A stretch of 53,146 bases of DNA, from NCBI GenBank assembly GCA_023268935.1, contig JALRKK010000019.1, forward strand, positions 1 through 53,146, read 5' to 3'. The DNA is from Glaciecola sp. GTDB taxonomy: Bacteria > Pseudomonadota > Gammaproteobacteria > Enterobacterales > Alteromonadaceae. Each line of letters starts with the position of its first letter. Positions within the stretch are counted from its first letter, which is position 1. Positions 23,957 through 46,274 of this stretch are shown piece after piece. The notes below the pieces were generated by a model. The model had not been told where the DNA came from. It saw only the letters and a list, made by a program, of their open reading frames with translations, and searched no databases. A program made the position numbers and the translations under genes.

Positions 23957-25414
23957 ATGAGACCCTCACTGCAACTAAAATTCAGTCAACAACTTACCAT
24001 GACGCCGCAACTGCAGCAGGCGATTAAGTTGCTACAGCTTTCAACACTGGATTTACAACAAGAAATACAAGAAGCTTTAGATGCAAATCCACTATTAGAA
24101 GTGGAAGACGACTTTTCTAGCAATACCGAATCACTCGACGAATCTCAAGATAAAGAATCCGCTAGTTCTGATTCTATTTCATCCCATGAGGCGCTGGAAT
24201 CCGAAAATGTATCGGATGATTTGCCATTGGACAGTACCTGGGATGACTACTACAGCGCATCTTCAGCTCCCGCACCGATGACAAACACGGTCGGTGGTGA
24301 GGATGATACCGTTTACCAAGGTGAAACTACTGAGAATATTCAAGACCATTTGCTTTGGCAGGTAGATTTAACCCCTTTTTCAGACACCGATCGTGCCATA
24401 GCGTTCGCGATCATAGATAGTATCGATGACAGCGGTTATCTGACGACTACAACTGAAGAAATTCTAGAAGCCGTTGATATTGAGGATGTCGAACTCGATG
24501 AAGTAGAGTGTGTCCTTAAGCGGATCCAGATGTTTGATCCAGTGGGTTCCGGTTCTCGCAATGTACAAGAATGCTTATTGATCCAGCTTCGTCAGTTTGA
24601 CCAAGACACACCATATCTAGCAGAAGCAAAAGACATTATTACCGAATACAGCGATTTGCTTGCTGCAAAAGATTATCGAACTTTAATGCGCAAAACGCGT
24701 CTAAAAGAACAAGAGCTACGCGAAGTAATGCTGTTATTACAGACACTTAACCCAAGACCGGGAAGTGTAATACAAACTGAAGCCCCATCTTACATCATTC
24801 CCGATGTAAGCGTGGTCAAAAAGAACGGACGTTGGTTAGTCGAACTTAACCCTGATAGCTTACCTAAGTTAAATATTAACCAACAATACGCAGCATTGAG
24901 TAAAAACTCACGCAATAGCGCAGATAGCCAGTTTGTCAAATCGCACATGCAAGAGGCCAAATGGTTTATTAAGAGCCTAGAATCTCGCAATGACACATTA
25001 CTTAAGGTCGCAAACTGTATTGTGCAACAGCAAATAGGCTTTTTTGAGCACGGTCCAGAGATGATGAAGCCAATGGTACTCAATGATGTAGCTGAAATGG
25101 TAGATATGCACGAATCCACTATCTCTCGTGTCACTACACAAAAGTATATGCATACCCCACGTGGTATTTTTGAATTGAAATATTTCTTTTCTAGCCATGT
25201 GGCAACAGAATCAGGTGGTGAATGCTCATCAACAGCGATTCGCGCATTAATTAAAAAGCTCGTAGCGGCAGAAAACACAGTGAAGCCGCTCAGCGATAAC
25301 AAGATTGCAGAAGTGTTAGCCGATCAAGGTATCAAAGTAGCGCGGCGAACCATTGCAAAGTACCGGGAGTCTTTGAACATCCCATCTTCGAGCCAACGCA
25401 AAAGCTTGGTTTAA
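23957..25414 (+). CDS. rpoN: RNA polymerase sigma-54 factor
   Basis: A 485-residue sigma factor. The glutamine/leucine-rich region I ([23 protein letters not shown]) is at the N-terminus, an acidic region II follows (about residues 50-115), then the core-binding and HTH regions, with the RpoN box ARRTIAKYR at residues 462-470 that reads the -24 element. AAGG seven bases before the ATG supports the start. It serves enhancer-dependent promoters such as the two I find near 41.5 and 42.2 kb. It heads the hpf-ptsN-rapZ-ptsO group. Confidence 0.98.
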
Positions 25415-39625: not shown

Positions 39626-40105
39626 TTAAGAGTTAGCAAACGTTTTCATTGCATCATGATCGAGTCGATAACCGATCCATTCCGATTGTGGTTTGGCGCC
39701 AATCGATTCGTAAAATTCGATAGATGGCGTATTCCAATCTAAAACATTCCATTCAAAGCGGCCACATCCTTTATCTAAAGCGATTTGATTTAAGTGTTTC
39801 AGTAAGGCTTTACCGGCACCAATGCCGCGGGACTCCGGAGTAACATACAAATCTTCTAAAAAGAGTCCATTTTTACCGAGCCAAGTTGAGTAATTATAAA
39901 AGTACACGGCAAAGCCAATCGGCTTTTTACCCTGTTCGCAGATCACGGCGTCCACCGTTGAGTTGGCACCAAATATACTATGCTCAATATCTGCTTGCGT
40001 GGCTAAGACCTCATGCTCGGCTTTTTCGTAAACTGCGAGTTCAACAATGAACTGCATGATAGTCTCGGCATCTTCAATTGTGGCGGGGCGGATAGTAATG
40101 GACAT
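39626..40105 (-). CDS. GNAT N-acetyltransferase (diamine/thialysine type)
   Basis: A 159-residue GCN5-related acetyltransferase. The acetyl-CoA loop RGIGAGKALL (V/I-x-x-x-x-R/Q-G-x-G/A) is near residues 95-104, preceded by LFLEDLYVTPE and followed by FEWNVLDWNTPSIEFYESIGA, the pattern of spermidine/spermine and thialysine acetyltransferases. Substrate not determined. It is divergent from dusA. Confidence 0.85.
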   Translation of the reverse strand: MSITIRPATIEDAETIMQFIVELAVYEKAEHEVLATQADIEHSIFGANSTVDAVICEQGKKPIGFAVYFYNYSTWLGKNGLFLEDLYVTPESRGIGAGKALLKHLNQIALDKGCGRFEWNVLDWNTPSIEFYESIGAKPQSEWIGYRLDHDAMKTFANS

Positions 40106-40279
40106 GTTGGAGCCTTTTTAATTGAGATCGTTTAAATCTGGGTAATGTTAGCATATTTACGAATTTTATAGCCTATGTAAAGTTCGTTAAAGCTTACTTT
40201 TGCGAACTTAGTTTTTTTGATAACATAGACACATTAATTCCTCGTATTTTCTACCCATTTTATCAATGGATACAGCTTC

Positions 40280-41302
40280 ATGAGCACTAACCATTTTCAT
40301 CGTCGATTTAGTGTCGCCCCAATGCTGGATTGGACCGACCGTCACTGTCGTTACTTTTATCGACAAATGACCCAGTATGCGCTCTTATACACTGAAATGG
40401 TCACCACTGGCGCGATCATTCACGGCAAGGGAGATTTTTTAGGATTTAATGACGCTGAGCATCCGGTCGCTTTACAATTGGGAGGCTCAGATCCTGGTGC
40501 GATGGCAGAATGCGCCGCCCAAGCTCAAGAACAGGGCTATGATGAGGTCAACATCAATGTCGGCTGTCCCTCTGATCGAGTGCAAAATGGGGCGTTTGGC
40601 GCCTGTCTGATGGCAATGCCTGAGACCGTTGCTCAGTGTATCCAAGCGATGCAAGCGCAAGTTGACATTCCCGTGACGGTTAAGTCGCGGATTGGTATCG
40701 ATGATATGGATGAATATGAAGATCTGACTCGTTTTATCCAAATCGTCGCTGACGCAGGGTGTAACACGTTTATTGTGCATGCGCGCAAAGCTTGGCTCAA
40801 GGGTCTAAGCCCCAAAGAAAATCGAGACATTCCACCCTTGATGTACGATAGAGTCTATCAGCTCAAACAACAATTCCCTGAACTGCACATTGGTATTAAT
40901 GGTGGAATCAACAATCACGTGGATGGTCTTGCCCACTTAGAGCACGTTGACGAAGTCATGCTGGGCCGTGAAGTGTATGCTAATCCTTATTGTTTGGCTG
41001 AGGTTGATGCTCTATATTACGGCGATAATCATAGTGCGCCAAGTCGAGCTGATGTGGTTGAGAGTATGTATCGTTATACCAAAGAGTATCTCAGCGATGG
41101 TGGACGAGTATGGCATATTGCAAGGCACATGCTAGGCCTGTTTCAAGGTCAACCTGGTGGTAAAGTCTGGCGTCGTTATTTGAGCCAAAATGCGATAAAA
41201 GGTGAAGTATCAGCGGATGTACTGTTGGACGCTCATGCCGAAATGGAAGCGACTAAAGCGCGTGCCTTGGTATTTCAGGCCGAAAAAATAAGATCGTCTT
41301 AG
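40280..41302 (+). CDS. dusA: tRNA-dihydrouridine(20/20a) synthase DusA
   Basis: A 340-residue FMN enzyme that reduces U20 and U20a in the tRNA D-loop. The TIM-barrel N-terminus SVAPMLDWTDRHCRYFYRQM and the catalytic cysteine loop GCPSDRVQNGAFGACLM (about residues 94-110) identify DusA. In E. coli the next gene is pspG; here the next units are driven by sigma-54-type promoters, which makes this neighbourhood informative. Confidence 0.96.
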   Translation: MSTNHFHRRFSVAPMLDWTDRHCRYFYRQMTQYALLYTEMVTTGAIIHGKGDFLGFNDAEHPVALQLGGSDPGAMAECAAQAQEQGYDEVNINVGCPSDRVQNGAFGACLMAMPETVAQCIQAMQAQVDIPVTVKSRIGIDDMDEYEDLTRFIQIVADAGCNTFIVHARKAWLKGLSPKENRDIPPLMYDRVYQLKQQFPELHIGINGGINNHVDGLAHLEHVDEVMLGREVYANPYCLAEVDALYYGDNHSAPSRADVVESMYRYTKEYLSDGGRVWHIARHMLGLFQGQPGGKVWRRYLSQNAIKGEVSADVLLDAHAEMEATKARALVFQAEKIRSS

Positions 41303-41394
41303 TCTTTTTGAACCGGCAAAGAATGACAGTTGTCACTTATTTCCTTTCCCCCTTTCCTTAATTAATGAAACTTAACCAAAATGTGGTGTTTTTT

Positions 41395-41421
41395 ACTAAC
41401 TAGCATGGTCAAAAAAGCTAA
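41395..41421 (+). promoter_or_regulatory. Candidate PspF-like upstream activating site, copy 1
   Basis: ACTAACTA (41395-41402), three bases, then TGGTCAAAAAAGCTAA (41406-41421). The TGGTC start lies 89 bp before the GG of the -24 element at 41495. The same composite recurs at 42111-42135 before the second sigma-54 promoter. Two CTAA(C/T) half-sites are spaced by about two helical turns. I infer an enhancer-binding protein site, PspF being the natural candidate. Confidence 0.6.
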
Positions 41422-41493
41422 TCCAGGCTTTATGTGCGGATGTTTAAAATAAAAAGACTAAGTAAAATATAGGTTTACGATTTTTTTCAGAAT

Positions 41494-41509
41494 TGGCACA
41501 ACCTTAGCA
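41494..41509 (+). promoter_or_regulatory. Sigma-54 (-24/-12) promoter for the secreted small protein
   Basis: TTGGCACAACCTTAGCA (from 41493) has the invariant GG at 41495-41496 and GC at 41507-41508 with exactly ten bases between, and TTGGCAC is the full -24 consensus. Transcription would begin near 41520, about 55 bases before the ATG at 41575. Confidence 0.75.
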
Positions 41510-41574
41510 ATAGTTAATACGACTTAAACAATATGATGTAAATATTGTGATTAACTTGCTAAAAAGGTATGACC

Positions 41575-41892
41575 ATGACTGTTACCACAAAACTTGCCAA
41601 ATCCATTATCGCTTCAGTTTTTTTAATGACTGCATCGGCTGCAGCGAACGCTCAAACCGAGCAAACCGTTCCATTAAACACATATGTGAATATAATGACG
41701 CAACATACAACAGCATTGAATTCACAGGACGTACATTTTGGCGCGATGCAATCTGTCGCCAATACAGCACACCAATTTTTGTTAGACGACCAACCACAGT
41801 TTGCGCCGACCATCAATGTGATTGACATTGTACAAAACACTATTGCCTCGGACGTTAAAGCGCTTAAAGATACTGCAGACGAGGCTGAATAA
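41575..41892 (+). CDS. Small secreted protein of unknown function
   Basis: A 105-residue protein with a clear signal peptide (KLAKSIIASVFLMTASAAANA, cleavage likely at ANA-Q). The mature part of about 80 residues is acidic, helical in appearance, free of cysteine, and I do not recognise it. I chose the ATG at 41575: AAGG lies seven bases upstream, whereas an in-frame ATG at 41569 sits directly on that site. It is the first gene behind a sigma-54 promoter beside dusA, where E. coli has pspG, so an envelope-stress role is the working inference. Confidence 0.75.
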   Translation: MTVTTKLAKSIIASVFLMTASAAANAQTEQTVPLNTYVNIMTQHTTALNSQDVHFGAMQSVANTAHQFLLDDQPQFAPTINVIDIVQNTIASDVKALKDTADEAE

Positions 41893-41894
41893 TA

Positions 41895-42023
41895 ATGTTT
41901 TTCATAGACTTAGTGTGGTTGTTTAGTGCGCCAATCCTTGCCTTTGTTGCTGCAGTAGGTTTATGGATGAGCAGTTTAAAAATTCCACATCATATTTGTA
42001 CATTGAAACGTCGCTGGTGGTAA
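41895..42023 (+). CDS. 42-residue membrane peptide, unknown
   Basis: An open frame of 42 codons beginning two bases after the previous stop. One hydrophobic helix (about residues 3-26) is followed by a basic, tryptophan-ending tail (LKRRWW), giving a likely cytosolic C-terminus. GAGG ten bases before the ATG may serve as ribosome site. A strong terminator follows 37 bases later. It is in the position of E. coli pspG relative to dusA and also ends basic, but is half the length; no sequence match is claimed. Confidence 0.55.
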   Translation: MFFIDLVWLFSAPILAFVAAVGLWMSSLKIPHHICTLKRRWW

Positions 42024-42059
42024 TCACCGCGATAAAGTACTTCTCTCACACTCCCTTTG

Positions 42060-42082
42060 GCCACCATCTCGGTGGCTTTTTT
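42060..42082 (+). terminator. Rho-independent terminator of the first sigma-54 unit
   Basis: GCCACC and GGTGGC form a GC-rich stem around ATCTC, followed by TTTTTT. It closes the unit of the secreted protein and the 42-residue peptide. Confidence 0.88.
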
Positions 42083-42110
42083 ATGTCTAAAATCTAGTTT
42101 TAAATATTTA

Positions 42111-42135
42111 ACTAACTATTGGTCAAAAACGCTAA
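42111..42135 (+). promoter_or_regulatory. Candidate PspF-like upstream activating site, copy 2
   Basis: ACTAACTA (42111-42118), one base, then TGGTCAAAAACGCTAA (42120-42135), 15 of 16 identical to copy 1. The TGGTC start is 90 bp before the -24 GG at 42210, nearly the same distance as in copy 1. CTAACT occurs twice, 20 bp apart. Confidence 0.6.
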
Positions 42136-42179
42136 CTTGCAAACCCTCTGTATTACTTGGTTTTCATCCTTTCAAATAA

Positions 42180-42209
42180 AAGTATTTAAGATCAATGGTT
42201 TAAATACTT
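42180..42209. repeat. Perfect 10-bp inverted repeat abutting the -24 element
   Basis: AAGTATTTAA (42180-42189) and TTAAATACTT (42200-42209) are exact inverted copies with a ten-base spacer; the right arm runs into the TTGGCA of the sigma-54 promoter. It could be an operator or a bending site. It is not present in the first promoter. Confidence 0.5.
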
Positions 42210-42224
42210 GGCATGAGGATTGAA
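42208..42224 (+). promoter_or_regulatory. Sigma-54 (-24/-12) promoter for the PspC-domain gene
   Basis: TTGGCATGAGGATTGAA places GG at 42210-42211 and, ten bases later, GA at 42222-42223 where the consensus is GC. TTGGCA and TTG are otherwise consensus. The start would be near 42235, 49 bases before the ATG. Confidence 0.6.
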
Positions 42225-42283
42225 TTACTTAAACAGAAAAGTAGTTTCAACAACTCACGTAAGACTCGATAAAGGAGACTAAA

Positions 42284-42490
42284 ATGAATGTACATAAATG
42301 CGATACTCGATTGTACCGTGATGCTAGCAACCCTCTAATTAGTGGGGTTTGTAGTGGCATTGCAAAACGCTTTAATCTTGATGCTATCTGGGTCAGAGTG
42401 GCAGCCATCGCACTCTTCCTGTTTGCTCCGACAGCCATAGCATTGGGTTATATACTAGGGATCTTGTTTTTGCGCAAGCGCTATGCATAA
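42284..42490 (+). CDS. PspC-domain envelope stress protein
   Basis: A 68-residue single PspC domain: N-terminal LYRDASNPLISGVCSGIAKRF, then DAIWVRVAAIALFLFAP and a second hydrophobic segment, ending in basic FLRKRYA. PspC proteins are inner-membrane partners of PspA/PspB in the phage-shock response. A strong AAGGAG site lies seven bases before the ATG. It has its own sigma-54-type promoter and terminator; pspA, pspB and pspF are not in the window. It may act as an additional PspC, or in the toxin-immunity branch of the response. Confidence 0.85.
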   Translation: MNVHKCDTRLYRDASNPLISGVCSGIAKRFNLDAIWVRVAAIALFLFAPTAIALGYILGILFLRKRYA

Positions 42491-42550
42491 TGTCAAAATA
42501 GATAAAAACTATGAAGTAAATCAGAAATTTGTCACATAAAAACGCGCAAA

Positions 42551-42579
42551 ATGATGCTATGCTATCAGCATCATTTTTG
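42551..42579 (+). terminator. Rho-independent terminator after the PspC-domain gene
   Basis: ATGATGCT (42551-42558) pairs with AGCATCAT (42567-42574) around an eight-base loop, followed by TTTT. The stem is AT-rich, so termination may be partial and feed the DUF2333 gene. Confidence 0.65.
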
Positions 42580-42593
42580 TGCTAGGGAATGCC

Positions 42594-43583
42594 ATGCCAG
42601 AATCCTTTAATTTCAAGAACATCGGTTTTGCGACACTCGCTATTATTCTTATTTTAACTATCATTGGTTGGGTTTGGAGTTGGTCGCCAGCAACCTTTTC
42701 GGTAAAAGACGTTGTTGCAGAACAAGCAAATGCGCTACAAGTAGAACCGGTTGTTGGTTTTGCCACAACTACCGCCGTTATCGAAGTGGGTGATATTTTG
42801 CTTCATAAAACCGGTGGCTATCTGAGTAACGATATTGCTCCTCCGGGGGTACTGATGGACAATATGCCAGCATGGGAATTTGGCGTGCTAGAGATGTTAC
42901 GCGATGTCACTTTGGCGTTGCGTAAAGATTTTTCTCGATCGCAATCACAGTCGGTTGAAAATGAATTTTTGGTCAAAGCACAGCCTAATCTCAATATCGA
43001 TAGCACCAAATGGATTTTGCCTTCTGCTGAATCTCAATATGGTGAGGCGATTGATCTGATCAAAGCTTATCGTCTAGCGCTAACTCAACAACAGGCGAGC
43101 AGTCAATTTTTTGCTAGAGCAGACAATCTACGCGATTATCTTAAAGAAGTCGAAAAGCGATTGGGCTCCATGTCACAAAAGCTCAGTGCTAGCGTTGGGG
43201 CAGATGTTATCAACACAGATTTAGCTGGAGATGCTAAAGCATCTCAGTCGACGCCAACCCCCATGCAACTGACCAACAAAACAAGTTGGTTCAAAATTGA
43301 CGATAATTTTTATCAAGCTCGCGGAATGGCTTGGGCGTTATTACACATTTTACGCGGCATCGAAATGGACTTTCGCGATATTTTAGTCAACAAAAATGCC
43401 TTGGTTAGCCTGCGACAAATTATTCGCGAACTCGAAGCGACCCAAGATACGGTGTGGAGTCCTATGATTTTGAACGGCAGCGGTTTTGGTATGCTCGCAA
43501 ATCATTCATTGGTCATGGCTAACTATATATCTAGAGCCAATGCAGGCATCATTGAACTGGCAGAATTACTCAATCGAGGCTAA
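42594..43583 (+). CDS. DUF2333-family inner-membrane protein
   Basis: A 329-residue protein with one N-terminal transmembrane helix (about residues 10-29) and a long, mostly helical periplasmic part (VGDILLHKTGGYLSNDIAPPGVLMDNMPAWEFGVLEMLRD is the family core). Function is unknown. I chose the ATG at 42594 with AGGG six bases upstream rather than an in-frame GTG at 42579. It lies directly downstream of the PspC-domain gene and upstream of an outer-membrane barrel. Confidence 0.82.
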   Translation: MPESFNFKNIGFATLAIILILTIIGWVWSWSPATFSVKDVVAEQANALQVEPVVGFATTTAVIEVGDILLHKTGGYLSNDIAPPGVLMDNMPAWEFGVLEMLRDVTLALRKDFSRSQSQSVENEFLVKAQPNLNIDSTKWILPSAESQYGEAIDLIKAYRLALTQQQASSQFFARADNLRDYLKEVEKRLGSMSQKLSASVGADVINTDLAGDAKASQSTPTPMQLTNKTSWFKIDDNFYQARGMAWALLHILRGIEMDFRDILVNKNALVSLRQIIRELEATQDTVWSPMILNGSGFGMLANHSLVMANYISRANAGIIELAELLNRG

Positions 43584-43614
43584 AACAATTTAATATTAAA
43601 CACATGGAATGAAA

Positions 43615-44367
43615 ATGAAAACACATATCGCAGTTGTATTATCAGGTCTCTTGTTGAGTACTACTTCTCATGCTGACACTTTGTTGGGTCTTTACGGTGG
43701 TGCTCAAATGTGGGCAATGGAAAGCGAAGGCGCGTTTTCCTCAGACGCGAATTTGGCGAGCTTTACTTTTGATGATGAACGCCAAGGTTCTTATTACTTA
43801 GCGTTTGAGCATTTTATTCCGCTGGTGCCAAATGCCAAATTAATTCAAACCAGTTTTGATACTAATGGGTTCACGGATCTATCTAGTAGCTTTACTTTTG
43901 GTGGCCAAACGTTTGCATCCGATACGCGACTAAATACCGATGTCGAAATGAGTATGACTGATCATATTTTGTACTACGAAATTCTCGATAATGATTTGGT
44001 CAGCATTGATTTGGGGATCAACGCCAAGAAGATAGATGCGACAATCAGTGTGGACGACACGGTAAATGACATCTCAGGTTCTCAAGACGTTACTGGCTAT
44101 ATTCCAATGGTCTATTCCAAAATTGAGTTTGGGATCCCTGCGACCGATTGGTCGATTTTTGCTGAAGGCAGTTATTTATCGATTGATGGCCACAGCGTGA
44201 GCGATCTCAATGCAGCCTTTGAATACCGGATTATAGATAGCCTAGCCGTGAATGTTGCCCTGCAAATTGGCGGGCGAGCAGTCACTATCGAATTGGACGA
44301 TCTTGATAACACCTACACTGATTTAGAATTCAGCGGAGTGTATGCCGGAATTGAAGTCCATTTCTAA
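43615..44367 (+). CDS. TIGR04219-family outer-membrane beta-barrel protein
   Basis: A 250-residue exported protein: signal peptide ending at SHA-D, then GLYGGAQMW and about eight alternating amphipathic strands, with the terminal GVYAGIEVHF and its C-terminal phenylalanine, the signal used by the BAM complex. This fits the TIGR04219 outer-membrane family, whose function is unknown. The ATG at 43615 has GGA six bases upstream; an in-frame ATG two codons earlier is possible. It is 31 bases after DUF2333 and probably co-transcribed. Confidence 0.8.
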   Translation: MKTHIAVVLSGLLLSTTSHADTLLGLYGGAQMWAMESEGAFSSDANLASFTFDDERQGSYYLAFEHFIPLVPNAKLIQTSFDTNGFTDLSSSFTFGGQTFASDTRLNTDVEMSMTDHILYYEILDNDLVSIDLGINAKKIDATISVDDTVNDISGSQDVTGYIPMVYSKIEFGIPATDWSIFAEGSYLSIDGHSVSDLNAAFEYRIIDSLAVNVALQIGGRAVTIELDDLDNTYTDLEFSGVYAGIEVHF

Positions 44368-44483
44368 TATCATTTTTATTTCTTTAGTCTAAAAAGTAAT
44401 AAAAAATCGTTAATTATTCTTTTCTATTATACATGAAGTCGTTTAGATTGAAGGCATAGATAACAAGGGTTAACGATTTTTTT

Positions 44484-46274
44484 ATGACAAATCCAAATGT
44501 ACCAGGTGTACTTGCTTCCGCACAACTTAGTGCCATTACGCAAGCAATTCAAGGTCTTGATAACCAACAGTTAAGTTGGGTGAGTGGCTATATTGCTGGC
44601 CTAGCATCAGCTCAAGGCGGTGGTATTGCAACCACTGAAGCACCGGCTAATCAAGCACAACTTACCGTTTTATACGGTTCACAAACTGGCAATGCCAAAG
44701 GTGTTGCACACGCGTTTGCCGAAAAAGCCAACGCTTCTGGCATAAACGCCAAAGTCGTTTCGATGGCTGATTATAAACCAAGAGCTCTAAAAGCTGAGAC
44801 GCATGTTGCAGTTATCGTATCAACTCATGGCGAAGGCGACGCACCGGATGATGCGGTTGAATTGCACGAATTTGTCGCCAGCAAAAAAGCGCCTAAGCTC
44901 GTTAATACCAAATACGCAGTGCTTGGGTTAGGTGATACAAGTTATGAATTTTTCTGCCAAACGGCGAAAGATTTTGACTCAAGACTTGCCGCGCTTGGTG
45001 CGACAGCTGTTGCTGAACGAGTTGATTGTGACGTGGATTATGCCCAAGCTTCAGCTGCCTGGATGGACAGTGTTATCGCAGCAATAAAAGACGATTTTAA
45101 TCAGTCAGTCGCAACGGTAGCTACCACTCTCTCAGCAGCTAATGCACCAGTTGCCACGTCTCAATACAACAAGCAAAACCCGTTCACAGCGTCCCTGATA
45201 GAGAGTCTAAAAATCACCGGTCGGGATTCAATCAAAGACATTCGCCATATTGAAATTAGTTTAGAAGACTCAGGCATTCAATACCAAGTAGGCGACGCCC
45301 TTGGTGTGTATTTTAGCAACTCTGATGATGTGGTGAATCGCATATTAGCGGCATTGACCTTAGATGGATCAGCCGAGGTTGAGGTCGCAGGGGAAACTTT
45401 GCCACTGAATATTGCTTTGGCTGACAAACTAGAATTGACGCTATCGTACCCAACGTTTATTAGTAAGTTGGCAGAAAGCACAGGTGCAGAATCGTTAAAA
45501 GTGCTTTTAGAAGATAAAGCCGCACTGCGCGAATACATCGCAGACCGTCAAATTGTTGATATTATTATTGATCATCCAGTCTCGTGTTCTGCGCAACAAC
45601 TCGTGGATGCATTGCGTCCAATCACCCCGCGTCTGTATTCAATTGCTTCTTCGCAAAGTGAAGTGGAAGATGAAGTACATTTGACGGTTGCTTTAGTCGA
45701 ATACGATGAGTTTGGCTTCACCCATCAAGGTGGAGCATCAGGATATCTTGGCAAACGTTTGGCAGAAGGCGATACGGTTAAAGTCTATGTTGAACCAAAT
45801 AATAATTTCCGATTACCTGACGATCCTAATGCTCCAATCATTATGATTGGCCCAGGTACCGGCATAGCGCCATTCAGAGCATTCATGCAAGAGCGTGATG
45901 CACAAGGTGCTGGAGGTGATAATTGGTTATTCTTTGGCAATCCACATTTTACTCAAGATTTTCTGTATCAAACAGAATGGCAAGGATACAAAAAGTCGGG
46001 CTTGTTAAGTCGTGTGTCTCTTGCATGGTCACGTGATCAAGAAGAAAAGATCTATGTACAACACCGCCTGCTTGAACAGGGCGCAGAAGTCTATGCATGG
46101 CTTGAGCGCGGGGCACATGTTTATGTTTGTGGTGATGCAACGCATATGGCAAAAGACGTAGAAAATGCGCTACTCACTATTTATCAAACCCATGGCAAGC
46201 TGTCTGAAGCGGATGCCAAACAAGCGCTACTAGCTCTGCGCAAAGCCAAACGTTATCAGAAGGATGTTTACTAA
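44484..46274 (+). CDS. cysJ: Sulfite reductase (NADPH) flavoprotein alpha-component
   Basis: A 596-residue diflavin reductase. An FMN-binding flavodoxin domain ([11 protein letters not shown] near 72-82, [10 protein letters not shown]) is followed by the FAD and NADPH domains ([24 protein letters not shown]) and ends in the typical YQKDVY. It passes electrons from NADPH to CysI. The final TAA overlaps the cysI ATG by one base. The 116-bp upstream region would carry CysB control, but no clear promoter is assigned. Confidence 0.97.

Follow-up and report, generated by a model that had tools for sequence, protein, structure and literature searches.

Organization of the locus beside dusA

What do the small genes directly downstream of dusA encode in this Glaciecola genome, and which regulator controls them? 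The window analyzed here is a stretch of 53,146 nucleotides (contig JALRKK010000019.1, positions 1 to 53,146 of the forward strand), in which two sigma-54 promoters lie in tandem 3' of dusA, each with a near-identical 16-bp site upstream. By sequence comparison, the locus is very probably (about 0.87) an accessory phage-shock (Psp) module controlled by PspF, at the position next to dusA where E. coli has pspG. Its features are as follows.

40280..41302, + strand: dusA (tRNA-dihydrouridine synthase A), upstream neighbour; Pfam Dus 3.8e-89
41384..41399, + strand: degenerate second PspF box of promoter 1, TGGTGTTTTTTACTAA; 110 bp ahead of the TGG, differing from the core at 3 positions
41406..41421, + strand: PspF box 1, TGGTCAAAAAAGCTAA; predicted site, by sequence match
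41494..41509, + strand: sigma-54 promoter 1 (-24/-12), TGGCACAACCTTAGCA; GG at 41495-41496, N10, GC
41575..41892, + strand: small exported protein of 105 aa with a signal peptide; mature part acidic, with mostly helix predicted
41895..42023, + strand: single-pass membrane peptide, 42 aa; basic C-terminus
42059..42083, + strand: intrinsic terminator-like hairpin at the end of unit 1; stem 42059-42077, then a T run
42100..42115, + strand: possible vestige of a second PspF box at promoter 2; the right half AACTAA alone fits, 5 mismatches to the core
42120..42135, + strand: PspF box 2, TGGTCAAAAACGCTAA; predicted site, by sequence match
42209..42224, + strand: sigma-54 promoter 2 (-24/-12), TGGCATGAGGATTGAA; GG at 42210-42211, N10, GA
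42284..42490, + strand: short PspC, 68 aa, PspC domain alone; Pfam PspC 1.9e-16
42548..42577, strand not assigned: hairpin 3' of pspC; terminator-like call on the - strand only, with a T run also on the + strand
42594..43583, + strand: DUF2333 gene, downstream neighbour, possibly co-transcribed with pspC; Pfam DUF2333 5.1e-143
43609..44367, + strand: 252-aa protein with an exported-looking N-terminus, without a Pfam family; it adjoins the module in several relatives too

An alternative ATG at 41569 would give an exported protein of 107 aa. Both units are on the + strand in the same direction as dusA, and the module is thus tandem, not divergent as the first-pass annotation had called it. No RNA family was matched within 40000-44600, and no plasmid copies of 41395-42490 were found. 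The sigma-54 gene rpoN is located in the same window, at 24929-25402 (+), and is the sole Sigma54_DBD match in this Glaciecola genome.

Promoters and the shared 16-bp motif

The twin promoters of the type GG-N10-GC/GA, as first described, can be read directly in the sequence. Over the 53 kb window, no site has a better sigma-54-like score than promoter 1, and one other equals it. Promoter 2 is outscored by six sites and equalled by one, and so would not stand out alone. The two 16-mers (41406-41421 and 42120-42135) agree at 15 of 16 positions and start 89 and 90 bp before the -24 GG, which bears out the initial reading. With up to two mismatches, the motif has three matches in the window versus 0.11 expected, a number reached in none of 100 shuffles and far above chance. 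The additional element ACTAACTA was also said to precede the motif in both units. It is present in both, but its offset is unequal (11 vs 9 bp), and in unit 1 it begins as the right end of the degenerate box at 41384-41399.

A composite pattern of box core, 71-101 bp and sigma-54 -24/-12 element was searched in 98 genomes and found at 25 places in 20 genomes, versus 2 for the reversed pattern. This 2.2 Mb genome has three such sites, two beside dusA and one at pspA, and none in the reversed-pattern control. Among the nine other congeners, the single-contig relative G004 also has exactly three, at the same places; G009 has one (at pspA) and seven have none under the strict pattern, the diverged boxes of the congeners being detected only with mismatches allowed. 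A chance likeness of the two motifs was rejected on the expected number of matches, the shuffles and the reversed-pattern control.

Distribution of the module at dusA loci

A total of 43 dusA loci from named organisms were fetched, presumably mostly from Alteromonadaceae, a family of mostly marine bacteria. Two were omitted, one with no downstream DNA (L071) and one with a partial match (L077), leaving 41 usable loci. The 2.5 kb 3' of dusA (102,426 bases) contain 58 promoter-plus-box sites on the + strand and none on the reverse strand, and the control upstream of dusA contains four in 463,210 strand-bases. At least one promoter with box was found in 37 of the 41 loci when boxes were permitted to extend back into dusA, at least two in 21 and at least three in five. 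The loci without one are L044, L050, L073 and L074, two of which are from Endozoicomonas.

The boxes are degenerate in many relatives. A total of 89 boxes at 63 distinct promoters lie at distances of 87-90 bp (6 boxes), 97-100 bp (15), 109-112 bp (29), 118-119 bp (8), 122 bp (3), 129-134 bp (26) and other values (2). Paired boxes are often spaced by about 21 bp, which corresponds to two helical turns. Within 5 kb past dusA (two loci have less than 4.5 kb), the exported protein was found in 38 of the 41 loci, the peptide in 29, PspA in 32, PspC in 34 and DUF2333 in 31, with the profiles of the exported protein and the peptide built partly from these same loci. As judged from its sites and genes, the conserved PspF-type extension of the known Psp system is family-wide. 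The idea of a module peculiar to this genome was rejected on its occurrence across the family.

The exported small protein

The first gene of unit 1 had been annotated as encoding a secreted 105-residue protein of unrecognised kind, and we indeed found a signal peptide and no database family. The window protein has no Pfam, NCBIfam or PHROG family at the curated cut-off or, for PHROGs, which lack cut-offs, at a significant E-value (best 0.065). All 37 members were compared to Pfam, with a best E-value of 0.00054 in two members and scattered families, and five to NCBIfam, with none near a cut-off. A known domain or solved structure was considered and dropped, with none in Pfam, NCBIfam, PHROG or solved relatives.

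Used as sole query, the window protein has relatives in 12 of 98 genomes, itself counted. A 37-sequence profile detects the family in 109 of 246 genomes of Alteromonadaceae and 33 of 52 genera, at 125 places. In an order-wide search, 15 of 247 genomes match, 13 in the same family and two weakly outside it. One of the outside matches lies within a 380-aa frame; both were taken as chance, and on these 247 genomes a spread beyond the family was rejected.

Forty of the 125 places, hand-picked as mostly the weakest matches or second copies though not every such one (G135, for example, has a match within a 1050-aa frame that was left out), were screened for upstream sites. A PspF box plus sigma-54 promoter was found within 450 bp upstream of 31 of these 40 members, versus four on the reverse strand and 0.04 in shuffles; the other nine have none. 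The stronger of the 125 places are not an independent sample, because many come from the loci that built the profile. Across their full extent, the 40 loci contain 47 composite sites, 36 of which stand before a small exported protein or pspA; for sites scoring at least 17.5 the figure is 36 of 38. The downstream genes were judged by eye from their first residues. The gene lies directly 5' of a pspA in L043, L044, L049 and L225-L227. It is missing in G005 (L223) and G008 (L224), where the unit-1 promoter and the peptide are retained, and is therefore dispensable.

A clear AxA-like cleavage site was seen in 34 of the 37 members; the mature part of these 34 has a median of 69 residues, a net charge of -7.5 and no cysteine. 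The structure models are weak, with a mean pLDDT of 56 for the window protein and 62 for the protein of Aestuariibacter salexigens (L055). The latter model has a helix at residues 29-69 with mid-helix block values of 79-84, and the mature protein is predicted to be mainly one helix. Over a stretch picked after the first model, the family-average hydrophobicity is periodic like that of an amphipathic helix (permutation p 0.0002), with a peak near 90-95 degrees and a low moment at exactly 100.

The membrane peptide

The second product of unit 1, noted earlier as a 42-residue membrane peptide, has one predicted span and a basic tail. Proline 13 is present in all 23 aligned peptide sequences, that of the window included, and in each of the 23, basic residues are more numerous C-terminal to the hydrophobic span than N-terminal to it. 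This charge bias suggests an N-out, C-in topology. The peptide is short and the comparison to G004 comprises 6 changes, with dN/dS values of 0.04/0.09; those to G009 are 0.14/0.67, dN thus being lower than dS in both. In two loci (L035 and L228), the peptide gene is directly 5' of pspC with no further promoter between them.

Small membrane toxins have a similar size, a single hydrophobic span and a basic C-terminal tail. On these shared features the peptide might be no Psp partner but one that is released under stress and acts like a small toxin or forms pores. We consider this unlikely, given the fixed place of its gene, the invariant proline, the low dN relative to dS against G009, its retention where the exported gene is missing, and its union with pspC in one unit in two lineages.

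The place of PspG after dusA

PspG (Pfam PF09583, curated cut-off) was found in none of 59 genomes of the family, the present genome among them, and in 6 of 98 genomes overall. In four of these six PspG-bearing relatives of the order, dusA is just upstream of pspG. The annotation had named pspG as the neighbour of dusA and a PspF/sigma-54 target in E. coli, which agrees with the MG1655 sequence, where pspG follows dusA and a box with two mismatches stands 67 bp before its TGGCA promoter. For the pspG genes of the six relatives, a promoter with box (up to two mismatches) was found in L137 alone, where dusA was not seen. The place after dusA is thus occupied by PspG in some families and by the exported protein and peptide in Alteromonadaceae.

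The shared position raises the question whether the pair descend from a PspG that split or decayed instead of being new families, the more so as PspG, too, has an invariant proline and the peptide carries its own in the membrane segment, followed by the basic tail. This origin is improbable. Comparison of the two profiles to PspG by hhalign gave probabilities of about 1% and 0.1%, that is, no profile similarity, and PspG itself was found in none of the 59 family genomes searched. Either small protein as PspG in disguise was dropped for want of profile support.

PspF as the probable activator

The pspF gene lies on another contig of this genome, divergent from pspA-pspB-pspC. The first-pass annotation had tied its reading to the presence of the motif at the pspA operon of the same genome, and the pspF/pspA intergenic region does contain a box, 110 bp before the pspA promoter. 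This box follows the same consensus and shares 12 of 16 bases with those in the window, the differences falling mainly in the unconserved middle. The scan of related genomes proposed along with that reading covered pspA as well as the dusA loci described above. Among 24 genomes of the same genus and family, the box was found at 23 pspA promoters, 100-112 bp upstream, with up to two mismatches allowed and two of the 23 scoring just 14.5; L121 is the exception. Under identical settings, 0.58 of 24 would be expected from shuffled sequence, and 8 of 24 were obtained on the reverse strand, the one facing pspF. The pspA control region of E. coli MG1655 has boxes 100 bp (4 mismatches) and 80 bp (2 mismatches) before the promoter. 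The PspF of this genome is 56% identical to that of E. coli over 349 aligned positions, with the C-terminal end (helix-turn-helix) covered.

The boxes at pspA promoters, the fits in E. coli, the conserved PspF and the presence of rpoN together make the site a PspF enhancer by comparison, and we strongly infer this function for both sites. The single enhancer-binding protein proposed earlier from the shared motif would then be PspF. According to a passage in one review, PspF has very few direct targets (PMC3467454).

That the promoters depend on sigma-54 while some other enhancer-binding protein shares the site is very improbable: five further matches to the PspF query exist in this genome besides PspF, one of them encoded beside pspC and one, at a contig start, covering the C-terminal part too (117-356, 32% identity), but the remaining four stop in or near the ATPase region of the query, the pspF/pspA promoter carries the same-consensus box in nearly all genomes scanned, and the control regions of E. 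coli pspA and pspG, known PspF targets, fit the box with 2-4 mismatches.

Unit 2: short PspC, second PspA and DUF2333

The PspC domain first noted in unit 2 matches Pfam PspC (PF04024) with 60 bits, above the cut-off of 25, over residues 9-64. The equivalog model TIGR02978 gives 55.6 bits, below its cut-off of 104, over model positions 2-61 of 121. Alignment reveals that the short PspC is without the C-terminal region possessed by the full PspC of this genome and by E. coli PspC. In E. coli, PspC cannot contact PspA without its C-terminal leucine zipper, residues 40-68 are enough for it to contact PspG, and G48 is needed for both contacts (PMC3068692). In the alignment, one residue is missing from the short PspC at the glycine matching G48, and a PspG-like contact therefore cannot simply be transferred to it.

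Unit 2 of many relatives begins with a second pspA, followed in order by the short pspC, often a membrane protein of about 110 aa, and DUF2333. Two PspA proteins were counted in 18 of 24 genomes and one in G000, G004, G009, G011, G014 and G018. Beside dusA, pspC occurs without a second pspA in G000, G004 and G009; since G004 is a single contig, the absence is no assembly gap. G011, from another genus, has exported protein, peptide, pspC and DUF2333 in that order. The first-pass annotation had placed a change of the stress output in this genome. On the contrary, the extension is common to the family and the present lineage is the reduced one, in which the second pspA, present in 32 of 41 dusA loci, is missing.

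Proposed mechanism and relation to known systems

In E. coli and Yersinia, membrane stress draws PspA away from PspF. We assume, by analogy to these two, that a stressed inner membrane takes PspA off PspF here as well. PspF, as strongly inferred from sequence, would then bind the 16-bp boxes, which lie some 90-130 bp upstream, and activate sigma-54 RNA polymerase at both promoters of the module and at pspABC. The roles of the small proteins are hypotheses from location and composition. The exported, acidic, predicted helical protein would likely work on the periplasmic side of the inner membrane under stress, and the one-pass peptide may have a partner in the membrane, most likely the short PspC. 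As it is without the PspA-binding C-terminal region, the short PspC is more likely an effector than a sensor. Exported protein, peptide and short PspC might together be the effectors that stand in PspG's place.

A bolder proposal, which we put forward as speculative and rather doubtful, is that Alteromonadaceae swapped PspG for two new Psp effectors, including an exported one. From the periplasm, this helical protein would guard the inner membrane or report on it, and the peptide and the truncated PspC would form a PspA-independent effector complex. If true, the Psp response would have an outer arm beside the known cytoplasmic one.

The module resembles the PspF regulon of E. coli and Yersinia in the single box consensus, the sigma-54 promoters, the PspC domain and, for E. 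coli, a target after dusA. It differs in that no PspG was found in the family, two or three promoters lie beside dusA in many relatives, most relatives have a second pspA/pspC set, and two small-protein families are without a database family. To PspG (PF09583) it is comparable in the position after dusA and the small membrane product, with PspF/sigma-54 control of pspG in E. coli; however, PspG has two membrane spans, whereas the peptide has one and no detectable sequence similarity to it. The PspC domain is in common with PspC (TIGR02978), but not the C-terminal region. In the LiaI/LiaH pair of Bacillus subtilis, as a survey describes it, a PspA-family protein and a small membrane protein are encoded together and controlled by stress (PMC9239133). 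That pairing is similar by description alone, and its regulator is another one, the Lia system, versus the PspF-type control here.

In the literature searched, no title or abstract start describes such a module; most subscription papers and RegPrecise lay outside this scope, and an earlier prediction of the sites is possible. The module is unmentioned in the portions considered of two Psp surveys (PMC9239133 and PMC11237479). By word count, 'Alteromonad-' is absent from the main texts of both, and DUF2333 and PspG from that of PMC11237479. We conclude that the module is a real, conserved extension of the known Psp system, with no earlier description found in the literature searched. A large family thus possesses a conserved extra PspF-type module and two small-protein families new to the libraries searched, with no PspG found. 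The conserved extra module without PspG provides a natural experiment on the roles of accessory Psp proteins, which includes lineages with the short PspC but without a second PspA, and lineages with the peptide but without the exported protein.

Variants and neighbouring genes in relatives

A gene for an enhancer-binding protein, which we take to be TyrR-like from its appearance, adjoins the pspABC operon of this genome (L010:1399-2955, - strand). NtrC-like factors with ACT and PAS domains occur in such psp operons, according to the part of a survey used here (PMC11237479).

Second copies of the exported-protein gene with their own PspF-type promoter were found in L205, L206, L209 and L210; within the stretch fetched, dusA was not seen upstream of these copies, and the 2.6 kb downstream showed none of pspA, pspC and DUF2333. 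Unit 1 is duplicated 3' of dusA in L051, L052, L054, L058, L059 and L060 (Alteromonas/Aestuariibacter), and most of these six loci have three PspF-type promoters in a row. In Rheinheimera (L068 and L069), the exported protein, peptide and short pspC, in that order, are followed by a 141-aa exported-looking protein and then DUF2333.
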